DNA of 64,000 bases from Pseudoalteromonas sp. GCY (lineage in GTDB: Bacteria; Pseudomonadota; Gammaproteobacteria; Enterobacterales; Alteromonadaceae): positions 2,743,501 through 2,807,500 of the forward strand of contig NZ_CP068023.1 in the NCBI RefSeq assembly GCF_016695175.1, written 5' to 3'. Below are positions 13,982 to 41,013 of this stretch, piece by piece. The notes under the pieces were generated by a model, which saw nothing but the letters and a program-made list of their open reading frames with translations, was not told where the DNA came from and did no database searches. The position numbers were made by a program, and so were the translations under genes. Within the stretch, counting starts at the first letter, position 1; every line of letters begins with the position of its first letter.

Positions 13982-14641
13982 TCACTTTTCAGCCATTTTC
14001 TTTTTCAGCTGTTCAAGCTCGTCATCAATCTTTTCGTTCTTTTGCAGATCAGCAATCTCATCCGCTAAAGATTTCTTACCTAAATCGTAAGACTCGATTT
14101 GTGACTCTAGGCCGTCGATTTTGCTCTCATAACGTTCAAAGCGATTTAGGGCATCATCTACTTTACTGCTGTCCAGTGCCTTTTTCACCTCTAAACGAGA
14201 TTCTGCTGAGCGCTGACGTAGTACAATCGCTTTTTGGCGCGCTTTTGCGTCGGCCAGTTTATCTTGTAATGTACTGACTTCTTGCTGCAGCTTTTCAATG
14301 TGCGTGTCTACATGCTCTAGCTCTTTTTCAAGGGCTGCAACATCTTCCGCAGACTTTTGCTTTTCAAGTAAAGCAGCACGCGCTAAATCTTCACGTTCTT
14401 TACTTAGTGCAAGCTCTGCTTTAGTTTGCCAATCATCTGCCTGTGCTTTTAGCTGATCTAAACGGCGCGTTAACTCCTTTTTCTCAGCGAGTGTTTTTGC
14501 TGAGGTCGATCTTACTTCGACTAGTGTATCTTCCATTTCTTGGATAATTAGGCGAACCATTTTTTCTGGATCTTCGGCTTTATCCAAAATAGCATTGATA
14601 TTAGAATTCACTATGTCTGCAAAACGAGAAAAAATTCCCAT
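13982..14641 (-). CDS. pspA: Phage shock protein A
   Basis: A 219-residue PspA/IM30 (ESCRT-III-like) protein. It starts MGIFSRFADIVNSNINAILDKAEDPEKMVRLIIQEME, the membrane-binding amphipathic helix and family signature, and then forms an almost continuous coiled coil to the end. PspA binds stressed inner membrane and, when unstressed, inhibits the activator PspF. Here pspA is first in the leftward unit with a sigma-54-type promoter, and pspF is divergent on the other side, the canonical arrangement. An AGAGGT ribosome-binding site lies about eight bases upstream. Confidence 0.97.
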   Translation of the reverse strand: MGIFSRFADIVNSNINAILDKAEDPEKMVRLIIQEMEDTLVEVRSTSAKTLAEKKELTRRLDQLKAQADDWQTKAELALSKEREDLARAALLEKQKSAEDVAALEKELEHVDTHIEKLQQEVSTLQDKLADAKARQKAIVLRQRSAESRLEVKKALDSSKVDDALNRFERYESKIDGLESQIESYDLGKKSLADEIADLQKNEKIDDELEQLKKKMAEK

Positions 14642-14687: not shown

Positions 14688-14703
14688 TCAAATAGCTTGC
14701 CAA
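14688..14703 (-). promoter_or_regulatory. Sigma-54-type promoter of pspA
   Basis: On the minus strand the sequence TTGGCAAGCTATTTGA has GG and GA separated by exactly ten bases, the spacing needed for sigma-54 (-24/-12). It departs from the consensus -12 by one base (GA for GC). It ends 47 bases upstream of the pspA ATG. PspF-dependent sigma-54 transcription of pspA is established in enterics. Confidence 0.7.
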
Positions 14704-14823
14704 CTTTAACAAATTTAAAAAAACAATAAAATCATAAGGTTATTTTATTTTTAAAAGTCCTTTAGTTATCACTTTTTTTGAAATACACTAGTTATTAGTA
14801 AAAACCACTAAGAGTTAGGCAAT

Positions 14824-15915
14824 ATGAGTCGTTTTCGCCAACAGGATAATTTATTAGGCCAATCTGACAGCTTTTTAGCTGTGCTAGACAAGGTTTCACA
14901 GCTCGCTCCTTTAGAAAAGCCAGTGCTTATTATTGGCGAGCGCGGCACAGGTAAAGAGTTAATTGCGGCGCGTTTGCATTATCTCTCAGAGCGGTGGGAT
15001 CAGGAATACGTCAAACTGAACTGCGCAGCCCTAAACGAAAACCTCTTAGAGAGTGAATTATTTGGTCACGAGAGCGGTGCCTTTACTGGTGCAAGCAAGC
15101 GCCATGAAGGTCGATTTGAACGCGCTAACAGTGGCACACTGTTTTTGGATGAGTTAGCTAATACCTCTGCAATGGTGCAAGAAAAGCTCTTGCGTGTAAT
15201 TGAATACGGTGAGTTCGAGCGAGTTGGCGGTAAGCAAACCGTAAAAGTAGATACTCGACTGGTATGCGCTACCAATGAAGATCTCCCCTCTCTTGCCGAT
15301 GCTGGAGAGTTCAGACACGACTTATTAGACCGCCTCGCATTTGACGTCATCACCTTACCGCCACTAAGAGCAAGAAAAGAAGACATCTTATTATTGGCCG
15401 AACATTTTGCGATAAATATGGCTCGGGATTTAGGATGGGAGTTATTTAGCGGCTTTACCCGTAAAGCCATCGAAAAGCTGCTTGATTACCCGTGGCCCGG
15501 TAATATCCGTGAGCTCAAAAATGTGGTTGAACGTAGTTTATATCGTCATGGCAATGACCAAATTCCGGTTCATGATATTGTGTTTGACCCCTTTGCTAGC
15601 CCATTTAGGCCGAGCCAACGGATCAAAGCGTCAAGCGTCCAGCCAACAACTTCAGCCACTCATAAAGTTGAGCCTTTGCCTACGGCGCAACCGAGTAATG
15701 AACAGCAGGCAGATCCAGCCCTCGAATTCGACTTCCCTTGTGATTTGAAATCGCTTTCCAACGACTACGAAATCACAATGCTGCAAAAAGCGCTTGAATT
15801 TAGTCAATTTAATCAAAAGAAAACTGCACAAAACCTGGGTTTGACGTATCATCAACTGAGAGGTTATTTGAAAAAATACAACCTACTGGACCAAAACCAA
15901 AAACAAGAGGCATAG
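14824..15915 (+). CDS. pspF: PspF sigma-54-dependent activator
   Basis: A 363-residue bacterial enhancer-binding protein without an N-terminal receiver, as expected for PspF. The AAA+ domain covers about 10-240: Walker A GERGTGKE, the sigma-54-contacting loop GAFTGA in ESGAFTGASKRHEGRF, and Walker B GTLFLDE. The C-terminal Fis-type helix-turn-helix is NQKKTAQNLGLTYHQLRGYLKKY. A longer, low-complexity Pro/Ser/Thr/Gln linker of about 60 residues separates the two. It is divergent from pspA and its stop overlaps or abuts sapA, so in this genome pspF appears to head the sap operon. Confidence 0.96.
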   Translation: MSRFRQQDNLLGQSDSFLAVLDKVSQLAPLEKPVLIIGERGTGKELIAARLHYLSERWDQEYVKLNCAALNENLLESELFGHESGAFTGASKRHEGRFERANSGTLFLDELANTSAMVQEKLLRVIEYGEFERVGGKQTVKVDTRLVCATNEDLPSLADAGEFRHDLLDRLAFDVITLPPLRARKEDILLLAEHFAINMARDLGWELFSGFTRKAIEKLLDYPWPGNIRELKNVVERSLYRHGNDQIPVHDIVFDPFASPFRPSQRIKASSVQPTTSATHKVEPLPTAQPSNEQQADPALEFDFPCDLKSLSNDYEITMLQKALEFSQFNQKKTAQNLGLTYHQLRGYLKKYNLLDQNQKQEA

Positions 15916-36177: not shown

Positions 36178-36609
36178 CTAACTCATTAACGTGTCCTTGT
36201 TCGCTTTGTTTTCTTCCTGAGTTACCGCTTCTCTCATCGCTTCTTGTAAGGCAGCCATCCGATCTTCTAATTCTTCAGGTGAAATTTTTCCCTCAGCCGC
36301 AAGCTTTTCAAGTTCTGCCATTTTCTCTTTTAATTCGTCAATTTTCTCTTTATTTGCCCCTAAGCGGCTAAACATTACCGCTTCTCTCATTTTTTCTAGA
36401 AATGACTGATTACGCTCCACCACTTCATATTTATATGGCTCGTCGACTTTATTATCGAGTACAGGGGATGATTGGGCTGCGATGTTAGCAGCCGCGACAT
36501 AGTCTTGCTCCTGCGCAGCGGTATTAGCTCGTTTAGTTTGGGCAAGGCTTTGCAGCTCTGAAACGGACTCAGTAGTACGAATTGCGGAGTGGGTTTGGTA
36601 AGTGATCAT
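36178..36609 (-). CDS. Uncharacterised helical protein
   Basis: A 143-residue protein I do not recognise. The ATG at 36609 is preferred over 36642 because it has a perfect AAGGAGAG ribosome-binding site. No signal peptide or membrane helix is visible. The C-terminal half is strongly helical and charged, with heptad-like leucines (KEKIDELKEKMAELEKLAAEGKISPEELEDRMAALQEAM), suggesting a coiled coil; the sequence EGKISPEELEDRM recalls short helical oligomerisation segments. It lies 66 bases after the aroC start and faces folD. It is likely a real gene: good ribosome-binding site, coding-like composition and clean termination. Function is unknown. Confidence 0.75.
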   Translation of the reverse strand: MITYQTHSAIRTTESVSELQSLAQTKRANTAAQEQDYVAAANIAAQSSPVLDNKVDEPYKYEVVERNQSFLEKMREAVMFSRLGANKEKIDELKEKMAELEKLAAEGKISPEELEDRMAALQEAMREAVTQEENKANKDTLMS

Positions 36610-36675
36610 GATTGCTCTCCTTGATTTGTCCAAGAAAAGCAATCATTGTGCCAAAATTAGCTTACTCGCTACTGG

Positions 36676-38765: not shown

Positions 38766-38852
38766 GATGACTCTCTAAAGATCAAACTATATGGCGTTAT
38801 TGTAGCGGTTTTTAAGCTAGGTTTTTATGCTTTTTTTATTTAAAATGCCACC

Positions 38853-39404
38853 ATGAACAGAGAATCTAACACTAATGCTGACCTAAATGACGATTTCGCG
38901 ATGTTTCGTGAGTCTTTGAATGGTGTAAAACCCCTCAAACAAGATCAGGTGCAGCTCAAACAAAAGAAAAAAATTCAGAGCATAGAGCTGAAGCAACAAG
39001 TCAAGCAGCAGCAATCTGAGTTTTACTTTTCTGACGAGTATATTCCTGATATTGATACTTCGGGAACCATCAATTTCGTAAAGCCCGGTGCTGATCGCTA
39101 TTTAGCAAAACAGCTAAGGCGTGGTGACTACGCGCCCGAACTCATCTTAGATTTACACGGGCTAAATAAAGAAACGGTAAAACAAGAACTGGCAGCATTA
39201 ATTCATGCTTGTAAGAAGCAGCATATTGCCTGTGCGTGCGTGGTTCATGGAATTGGTGAGCGTGTGCTTAAGCATAAAGTACCGCAGTATCTTGTCCAGC
39301 ATCCAGATATACTGGCGATGCACCAAGCACCTTTAGAATATGGCGGTAAAGGGGCTGTATTAATCTTGGTTGACCTACCTGATGACCCTAACTTTGGCCG
39401 TTAA
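38853..39404 (+). CDS. smrB: SmrB-type ribosome rescue endonuclease
   Basis: A 183-residue protein with a polar N-terminal region and a C-terminal Smr domain (about 100-180). The conserved motifs are DLHGLNKETVKQEL and the HGIGERVLKHKVPQYL segment, both matching SmrB. SmrB cleaves mRNA at collided ribosomes in E. coli. It is divergent from prmB, the same neighbourhood as in E. coli. A 236-base gap follows. Confidence 0.94.
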   Translation: MNRESNTNADLNDDFAMFRESLNGVKPLKQDQVQLKQKKKIQSIELKQQVKQQQSEFYFSDEYIPDIDTSGTINFVKPGADRYLAKQLRRGDYAPELILDLHGLNKETVKQELAALIHACKKQHIACACVVHGIGERVLKHKVPQYLVQHPDILAMHQAPLEYGGKGAVLILVDLPDDPNFGR

Positions 39405-39556
39405 TTCGGCCCAAACATTGTTTTTTATCCTTTCTTACTTCGCTTAATCCAACCTTAATAAATTTAACTAAATCTTAGCCATTTCACTCATCCCGCACTG
39501 GTCAAATTCACCACTCCATTAATTCCCCTGTGCAAAATAAAAATTAAAATATATAA

Positions 39557-39570
39557 AAATCAATAAGATA
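39557..39570 (+). promoter_or_regulatory. IHF-like site in the AT-rich tract upstream of the small-protein unit
   Basis: The sequence AATCAATAAGATA fits the IHF consensus (WATCAA-N4-TTR) with one mismatch. It lies between the sigma-54-type promoter and any upstream activator site, where IHF often bends DNA. AT-rich DNA makes chance matches common. Confidence 0.3.
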
Positions 39571-39585
39571 AAAATTAAATTCATT

Positions 39586-39602
39586 TTGGCACAACCTTTG
39601 TA
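39586..39602 (+). promoter_or_regulatory. Sigma-54-type promoter of the small-protein unit
   Basis: TTGGCAC at the -24 side is followed at the exact ten-base GG-to-G spacing by TTTGTA, one base from the consensus -12 (TTTGCA). It lies 38 bases before the ATG at 39641. Both the spacing and the full TTGGCAC half-site support it. Confidence 0.65.
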
Positions 39603-39640
39603 ATAGTTATTGCGACTAACAAATTACAAGGAAACTTATT

Positions 39641-39883
39641 ATGACTACTTTAGCGAAAATCACCATGACAACTTTACTGTTTACAGCAAGCATGACAACA
39701 ACAGCTGCAGAAATTGATGCTTCATTACTTCAAGAAGTAAAAACTAAAGTAACGCAAGCTATCACTGAGTCAATCAAAGCGAATCTAGAAGAAATAAAAA
39801 TTGAGACCAAACAGTCTTTAGAGAAAGCGTTTCAAACAGCCAATAACAACGAGCAAGAAAAAAAGGAAGAGACTAATGATTAA
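39641..39883 (+). CDS. Small exported helical protein
   Basis: An 80-residue protein I cannot assign to a family. It starts with a signal peptide (about 1-22, cut probably after TTTAA). The mature part is a single predicted amphipathic helix with alternating acidic, basic and hydrophobic residues (SLLQEVKTKVTQAITES and SIKANLEEIKIETKQSLEKAF), ending in a very polar, charged tail (NNNEQEKKEETND). It has an AAGGAA ribosome-binding site and a sigma-54-like promoter. The downstream 38-aa reading frame overlaps its last codons, so the two may be translated together. Confidence 0.75.
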   Translation: MTTLAKITMTTLLFTASMTTTAAEIDASLLQEVKTKVTQAITESIKANLEEIKIETKQSLEKAFQTANNNEQEKKEETND

Positions 39884-39992
39884 TGAACTCGAATTTCTGA
39901 GTCTGCTCGCAACCCCCGTGATCAGTTTATTTGCCGCTTACCTAAGCATTCAACTGATAAAATCACTGGGTCAGTTTATCAACTTTAACTAG
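39876..39992 (+). CDS. 38-residue membrane peptide overlapping the small exported protein
   Basis: A short gene reading MINELEFLSLLATPVISL and onward to QFINFN. It has one hydrophobic segment (about residues 7-27) that could span the membrane. The ATG overlaps the end of the upstream gene by eight bases (ATGATTAA) in another frame, and AGGAAGAG sits at a suitable distance upstream, so it is probably translated by coupling. The size and context suggest a small membrane peptide rather than a remnant. Function unknown. Confidence 0.6.
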   Translation: MINELEFLSLLATPVISLFAAYLSIQLIKSLGQFINFN

Positions 39993-40073
39993 CATGGCAC
40001 TTGCTAAAGTAGGCAAGGTAGCCGAGTAGTCAAAGTATTACCCTGAGAAAGCTATTGAGGTATCAGTAGCCAT

Positions 40074-40106
40074 TAAAAAACCCGCCAATTGGCGGGTTTC
40101 TTTTTT
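40074..40106. terminator. Bidirectional terminator between the small-protein unit and the peroxiredoxin
   Basis: AAACCCGCC and GGCGGGTTT pair with a short loop and are flanked by A- and T-runs on both sides, so both converging transcripts can end here. Confidence 0.85.
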
Positions 40107-40140
40107 GATATCAGCGAGATATCACAAAGTCGACACTAAA

Positions 40141-40746
40141 TTATAGTGCGCCTTCGTTTTCAGATAGGAACTTAGCAACACCTTCAGGGCTTGCATCCAT
40201 ACCTGCTTTACCTTCAGTCCAACCTGCTGGACATACTTCACCGTGCTCTTCGTGGAATGCTAGTGCATCAACCATGCGAAGCATTTCGTCGATGTTACGG
40301 CCTAGTGGTAGGTCGTTAACTACTTGGTGACGTACATTACCTTCAGCATCGATTAGGAAAGAACCACGGAAAGCAACACCAGCTTCTGGGTGCTCAACGT
40401 CGTATGCTTGACAGATTTCGTGCTTAACATCAGCGATTAGATCGTATTTAACTTGACCGATACCGCCTTCGTTTACTGGAGTGTTACGCCATGCGTTGTG
40501 CGAGAATTGAGAATCGATAGAAACACCGATCACTTCAACACCACGCTTTTGGAACTCTTCGTAACGCTTGTCGAACGCGATTAGCTCTGAAGGACAAACA
40601 AAAGTGAAGTCTAGTGGGTAAAAGAAAACAACCGCTTTTTTACCTTTAATACGCTCGTGCAGGTTGTAGCTATCTACGATCTCACCGTTACCTAGTACTG
40701 CTGCTGCTGTAAAGTCTGGTGCCTTGCGGCCTACTAATACACCCAT
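40141..40746 (-). CDS. Two-cysteine peroxiredoxin (AhpC/PrxC type)
   Basis: A 201-residue thiol peroxidase that reduces H2O2 and organic hydroperoxides. The peroxidatic Cys lies in DFTFVCPSELIAF and the resolving Cys in EEHGEVCPAGWTEG, giving the typical 2-Cys arrangement. The ATG at 40746 is preceded by a GGAGAT site; an upstream TTG at 40758 would add four residues and lacks a site. No ahpF reductase is adjacent, so thioredoxin or another reductase must be elsewhere. The C-terminal GVAKFLSENEGAL is typical of the marine gammaproteobacterial subfamily. Confidence 0.93.
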   Translation of the reverse strand: MGVLVGRKAPDFTAAAVLGNGEIVDSYNLHERIKGKKAVVFFYPLDFTFVCPSELIAFDKRYEEFQKRGVEVIGVSIDSQFSHNAWRNTPVNEGGIGQVKYDLIADVKHEICQAYDVEHPEAGVAFRGSFLIDAEGNVRHQVVNDLPLGRNIDEMLRMVDALAFHEEHGEVCPAGWTEGKAGMDASPEGVAKFLSENEGAL

Positions 40747-41013
40747 TTTTATCTCCAATAGTTAGGTTTATTTCCAATCTTATTTGGTATCTCGTGTCGA
40801 GACCAAAATATCTTGTTCATAATATTGTGGCGTGCTTATAAAAAAACAACCCTAGCTAAATTCATAACCAAAGTATCTTTGCCATTCTCACCGCCAAAAA
40901 CTGCGCATAGTGTATTTGGCAAGTGCCATAATTAACAATCGAATTTACCGATAGTACCAATCTATAAATTCGATGAGACAAAAATGCCTCCGCTCAAGAT
41001 GCCATTCGGTGAT

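Follow-up and report, generated by a model that had tools for sequence, protein, structure and literature searches.

The window analyzed here is a stretch of 64,000 nucleotides from Pseudoalteromonas sp. GCY (contig NZ_CP068023.1, positions 2,743,501 to 2,807,500 of the forward strand). Between smrB and a convergent peroxiredoxin gene it holds two small overlapping open reading frames, here called gene A and gene B, placed behind a -24/-12 element of the sigma-54 type. The features of this unit and of its surroundings are the following, with positions counted from the first letter of the window.

38853-39404: smrB, flanking the unit; its product scores above the NCBIfam SmrB cut-off
39468..39478, + strand: candidate PspF-type palindrome CTAAATCTTAG, 119 bases 5' of the TGG of the -24 element
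39558..39571, + strand: IHF-like element AATCAATAAGATAA, imperfect in the window copy, the genus consensus being TCAATNNNTTAA-like
39587..39600, + strand: sigma-54 -24/-12 element TGGCACAACCTTTG, a sequence match with GG-N10-G spacing and one mismatch to TGGCACN5TTGC
39628..39634, + strand: ribosome-binding site of gene A, AAGGAAA, as read from the sequence
39641..39883, + strand: gene A, 80 aa, with a predicted Sec-type signal peptide (assigned by eye) and one long helix
39863..39869, + strand: ribosome-binding site of gene B, AAGGAAG, within the 3' end of gene A, as read from the sequence
39876..39992, + strand: gene B, an open reading frame for a predicted single-span membrane peptide of 38 aa
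40078..40099, + strand: intrinsic-terminator-like palindrome, 3' of the unit and before the peroxiredoxin gene
40141-40758, convergent: peroxiredoxin gene

The elements on which the initial annotation was built, namely the -24/-12 element, the 80-aa frame, the overlapping 38-aa frame and a ribosome-binding site for each of them, are all present as it described, genes A and B sharing 8 nt in the window. The -24/-12 match alone is hardly special, with 85 matches to TGGCACN5TTGC (up to two mismatches) in the window versus 67.7 expected, and 2 of 100 shuffles reaching 85. This near-chance rate is what speaks for regarding both the reading frames and the promoter match of the unit as products of chance; that reading is, however, refuted by conservation across the genus together with codon-level selection, both detailed below, and its probability is negligible. 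Thus, the -24/-12 element of the unit is taken as real because it is conserved across the genus. The window holds a second sigma-54 candidate besides the A-B unit, a perfect TGGCAC-N5-TTGC at 36639-36653 (- strand), standing at the start of a 154-aa frame (36178-36642, - strand) of coiled-coil-like sequence, for which no NCBIfam model was matched at E of 1e-5 or lower.

Of the 108 genomes of the genus, 91 contain the 14-mer -24/-12 core TGGCACAACCYTTG, at 97 places in total, while a reversed control gave a single match. Merging one exact repeat (two copies in G088) left 96 distinct rows, and at 91 of these an A-type frame and a B-type frame follow the core, in agreement with the expectation of the initial annotation that promoter and frames should be conserved in relatives. 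The five core places lacking the pair are L044, L046, L052, L059 and L061. Among the 91 pairs, a script recognized 89 rows, and inspection by eye contributed L051 and L110; a second pairing script also passed 89 and omitted L051 and L071, both of which were counted as pairs by their sequence. By this route the pair is present in 90 genomes rather than 91, because the single core match of G087 is not followed by a pair.

A profile of B matched 13 of the remaining 17 genomes (E up to 0.01), and all 13 contain at least one locus where an A frame of 61-95 aa is preceded by a -24/-12 variant agreeing at 10-12 of 14 bases, to be read against runners-up of 8-10 of 14 in the same stretches and, for G128, a best match and a runner-up that both score 10. 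Two further B-like frames, L213 (G017) and L214 (G003), lack a recognizable A or -24/-12. An additional A-B pair, in which A has only 53 aa, was reached through the upstream motif in G101 (L242). Overall, A-B pairs occur in 104 of the 108 genomes of the genus that were searched, none being found in G001, G002, G016 and G087. The unit is present in duplicate in G088 (L060), with identical proteins encoded 1.4 kb apart, and also in G072 (L033 and L047), while G003, G017, G033, G127 and G128 display two B-like frames close together behind one A. All these copies are related and non-independent, and the subset of 27 divergent copies (upstream identity <60%) used below reduces their kinship without removing it. 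The existence of the A-B pair is confirmed, and is more firmly established than the initial annotation claimed.

Substitution patterns between close pairs, defined as >80% identical DNA, distinguish the reading frame of B from the alternatives. In its own frame, B shows a pS of 0.367 and a pN of 0.031 (176 close pairs from 79 distinct B genes), whereas the two other frames of the same region give pS/pN values of 0.091/0.103 and 0.034/0.122, with no such excess. These statistics exclude copies with the conserved P elsewhere than at residue 14, shorter copies and the mis-assigned L032 frame. Purifying selection on B is strong and specific to its frame. For A, pS is 0.206 and pN is 0.040 (104 close pairs). 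Residues M1, P14, V15, S17 and Y22 of B are invariant in 33 chosen copies; L110 has I15, and the most divergent copies have F in place of Y22. A is poorly conserved, with M1 and A22 kept in all 43 chosen copies and K6, S17 and E51 in at least 90% of them. Among the 89 scripted pairs, A ranges from 73 to 103 aa and B from 36 to 41 aa, all starts are ATG, and the start of B lies from 11 bases upstream to 23 bases downstream of the end of A, one mis-assigned row being excluded.

The structural model of B is a single helix spanning residues 2-37 (mean pLDDT 89). All 54 distinct B sequences contain a 19-residue stretch with a Kyte-Doolittle mean of at least 1.64, consistent with the hydrophobicity of a membrane span, and their net charge averages -1.0 over the first seven residues and +1.1 from residue 26 onwards, a distribution that suggests an N-out/C-in topology. 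The model of A, of low confidence (mean pLDDT 65.6), displays a signal-like helix followed by one helix at residues 27-78. The initial annotation had described A as an exported amphipathic-helix protein; its frame and ribosome-binding site hold, while the amphipathic label is weakly supported. The best 18-mer has a moment of 0.48. When the 42-residue helix is scored with an angle of 100 degrees, the observed moment is equalled or exceeded in 328 of 1000 shuffles, and amphipathicity of the whole helix at this angle is therefore rejected as not beyond shuffles.

Neither product belongs to a described family as judged by Pfam and NCBIfam models, none of which scores above its cut-off for A or B, in line with what had been noticed at first. 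The best Pfam match of A scores 16.2 bits (cut-off 27) and its best NCBIfam match 14.8 (cut-off 90); B retrieves 0 families from both collections at E up to 10, and it does not match the PspB, PspC or PspD models of either. Profile searches of A and B, which the initial annotation had proposed, returned relatives among 5.8 billion proteins, those with a named organism all being from Pseudoalteromonas and mostly hypothetical proteins. When the B profile was run against 394 order-level genomes, 57 matched at E up to 0.1. Four of these are from the same genus, with E of 4.3e-16 or lower; the other 53 are among the 390 genomes outside it, none of which matches at E<=1e-3, with E values from 0.0038 to 0.1 and the best one (0.0038) lying inside a 468-aa frame. 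These outside matches are taken as chance. No description of the A-B unit was found in searches of an open-access library. As far as these sequences indicate, A and B would constitute an undescribed pair of small proteins, nearly universal in one marine bacterial genus in that it is found in nearly all sampled species.

The nature of B, a membrane peptide of 36-41 aa, also brings to mind a stress-induced membrane-active peptide causing toxicity or growth arrest, with A restraining or delivering it. YohP, a small stress membrane protein, is reported to silence metabolism (PMC12719787), and both the duplication of the unit in G088 and the paired B-like frames of the five divergent genomes would fit such a role. 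Toxin modules are, however, sporadic, whereas B is near-universal and strongly conserved in the genus. The stretch 38800-40150 gave 15 Rfam matches at E up to 1 and none at the gathering score, so that an RNA element was rejected there; this also speaks against a toxic peptide, which we consider quite unlikely.

A further alternative is that B binds an individual enzyme of the inner membrane and modulates it, in the manner of other one-span stress peptides; undecaprenyl-pyrophosphate phosphatase is a weak candidate. This candidate derives from the second match of the B profile in the window's genome, the helix SFLMSIPVISMMGLYYSLEL (E 7e-4) of a 285-aa, putatively UppP-like membrane protein (L203, at G000:C2:3357685-3357738), and from matches to frames of similar length in G120 and G033. 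The match is nonetheless short and weak and may reflect chance resemblance between hydrophobic helices, which makes this reading very unlikely.

The control of the unit was approached by comparing its upstream region with the pspA promoters of the genus. As the initial annotation had noticed, pspF lies in the same window, with a score above the TIGR02974 cut-off, and the features used for comparison are the following.

13982..14641, - strand: pspA (TIGR02977, 313 bits; cut-off 243)
14689..14702, - strand: sigma-54 element of pspA, TGGCAAGCTATTTG
14788..14818, - strand: palindromes upstream of pspA, CTAACTCTTAG and CTAATAACTAG
14824..15915, + strand: pspF, 24 kb upstream of the unit (TIGR02974, 556 bits; cut-off 444)

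Positions in pspA and in the unit are given here relative to the TGG of the -24 element. The 29 distinct pspA upstream regions carry CTAACTCTTAG-type palindromes, a first one at -115 to -120 and a second one at -95 to -100. If 7 or more of the 8 fixed bases are required, the first site stands within -121 to -114 in 29/29 regions and the second within -101 to -94 in 27/29. The A-B unit likewise has a CTAA-N3-TTAG palindrome about 118 bases 5' of its -24 element. Of the 91 copies, 90 were considered (one with truncated upstream sequence being left out): 64 contain a site that agrees at 7 or more of the 8 bases, against a mean of 11.3 and a maximum of 20 in 100 shuffles, and 23 contain one that agrees at all 8, against a mean of 0.45 and a maximum of 3. 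The 7-of-8 site falls at -121 to -116 in 59 copies and is missing from this interval in 31. A matrix built only from pspA sites gave a mean top score of 8.8 in the 27 divergent copies versus 3.7 (maximum 5.0) in 200 shuffles, its top site being located at -121 to -116 in 21 of them and in at most 4 for the shuffles; the six with their best site elsewhere are L020, L022, L038, L047, L071 and L089. A loose IHF pattern is present in 15 of the 27 (shuffles: mean 1.5, maximum 5), the window copy being an imperfect match. The suggestion that the unit might belong to the PspF regulon is favored by the palindrome tests, which reveal a pspA-type palindrome at a pspA-type distance.

Searches of the window's genome point in the same direction. 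Only three of its 442 TGGCA-N6-TTG sites have a CTAA-N3-TTRG 85-115 bases upstream, those of pspA, of the A-B unit and of a place inside a 341-aa coding frame on the other strand, while the reversed control gave one. A looser pattern gave 4 matches (control, 1), the extra one (L245) being within an open frame of 296 codons. The pattern TTAACYA-N3,6-TRGTTAA was found at two palindromic places elsewhere in this genome and did not match the unit, because the window copy reads CTAAATCTTAGCC. Genus-wide, the combination of site and promoter gave 207 matches in 107 of 108 genomes; since the reversed control gave 23, the smaller part of the individual matches is expected to be fortuitous. pspF itself was present in 30/30 genus genomes searched. 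In E. coli, the seven bases CTAACTC of the genus pspA site recur in the pspF-pspA stretch, at a different distance.

These data also bear on whether the sigma-54 unit could be driven by another enhancer-binding protein with a PspF-like site, its function then being for instance in surface growth or nutrient limitation. The window's genome gave 26 matches to sigma-54 activator domains, about 20 of them near-complete, so an activator other than PspF recognizing a similar site is possible. In addition, the second pspA-type site, at -101 to -94, is present in just 2/90 unit copies and missing in 88, and TGGTYAA-type repeats occupy about -100 to -60, the place of the second site in pspA, an ordinary pspA promoter being devoid of them. 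On the contrary, the first site of the unit matches that of pspA in both sequence and position, outside coding DNA it is common only to pspA and the unit in the window's genome, and similar TTGGTTAA/TTAGTTAA repeats also precede the -24/-12 of the psp paralogues in G087 and G101. Two tandem sites are, moreover, not a requirement for every PspF target; E. coli pspG is described as having one UAS (PMC3709507). Altogether, another activator appears unlikely, and PspF is the likely regulator of A-B to judge from its promoter region.

An inverted repeat with arms of at least 6 was also observed at about -90 to -55 from the -24 element in 18 of 30 copies (L020, L036, L038, L056, L069, L070 and others), the sample comprising the 27 divergent copies and 3 added for showing the repeat. 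Its arms covary between species (GGTCAAA/TTTGACC, GGTTAAA/TTTAACC, GGCCAAA/TTTGGCC and GGTGAAA/TTTCACC), with a mean score of 7.0 versus 2.4 (maximum 3.4) in 20 shuffles, and it might be an operator, a cruciform or an RNA structure. It is kept outside the core explanation because it occurs in part of the copies and is absent from that of the window.

Other genes, for psp paralogues and for envelope-type proteins, follow the same arrangement of site and promoter, which also speaks for PspF control of the unit. Nineteen loci from other genomes, excluding the ordinary pspA promoter and known copies of the unit, were picked by eye among the matches listed, together with the third match of the window's genome, and recurring kinds were preferred. 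DUF3192 lipoprotein-like genes lie downstream at nine fetched loci (L225-L232 and L241; three tested, all three above cut-off) and are candidate PspF targets. DUF2884 proteins are encoded at three (L236, L237 and L243; one tested, above cut-off), and a large lipoprotein-like protein at L233-L235, of which the one tested matched just PF21930, at 28.1 against a cut-off of 27. PspA/PspC paralogues are found at L238-L240 (one pair tested, above cut-off). At L242 of G101, the A-B pair lies ~520 bases 5' of a pspA paralogue (PspA_IM30), which has its own -24/-12, with TGGCACAATGATTG and TTAGTTAAATTAACCA-type sites.

Considering all the above, the A-B unit probably belongs to the PspF regulon as an operon for envelope stress that encodes two new small proteins, a proposal drawn from comparative sequence evidence. 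Damage to the inner membrane would release PspF from PspA, and PspF would then bind the CTAA-N3-TTAG site about 118 bases upstream of the -24 element, IHF possibly helping to bend the DNA between site and promoter. The sigma-54 polymerase would produce A and B as a single message; A would be exported by Sec to become a periplasmic helix, and B would insert as a single inner-membrane helix, probably N-out/C-in. Acting jointly, both might serve as an effector at the inner membrane under stress and fill the position that pspG has in E. coli. A protective role for the envelope is somewhat favored, a complex between A and B is conceivable though doubtful, and the unit perhaps stands in the place of PspG. 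A bolder version, in which A and B form a two-part repair module that takes the place of PspG, with B marking or bracing the damaged bilayer and A coating its outer leaflet from the periplasm, mirrors PspA, which works from the cytoplasm, and is rather unlikely.

Within one genus, the same combination of site and promoter precedes an additional operon that is nearly universal and encodes two undescribed small-protein families. Some genomes also have it in front of other genes, namely those for DUF3192 proteins, DUF2884 proteins and psp paralogues. PspF control, should it be confirmed, would mean that new small effectors are recruited to the phage-shock response, would give two protein families a testable role, and would provide a motif for seeking further PspF targets in marine bacteria.

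Regarding known systems, the PspF regulon of E. coli comprises, according to PMC9239133, the psp operon plus pspG. PspG is likewise a small stress membrane protein, one whose PspF/sigma-54 promoter lies outside the psp operon, features that for the unit would apply by prediction. B differs from it in being a 38-aa, one-span peptide that matches no Pfam model, and A is an exported partner without counterpart. The PspG family (PF09583) was found in 0/60 genus genomes, the E. coli control being positive, and A or B as PspG was rejected for lack of a PF09583 match above the cut-off. With the pspA operon of its own genus, the unit shares CTAA-N3-TTAG at about -118 and the sigma-54 -24/-12, while the genes are different and the second site, ~20 bases further down, is a trait of pspA (27/29) rather than of the unit (2/90). 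Finally, B resembles by its description the YohP-type single-span stress peptides, as reported in PMC12719787, in being a membrane peptide of under 50 aa with a predicted link to stress, and is distinguished from YohP by the exported A gene and the sigma-54 element that accompany it.
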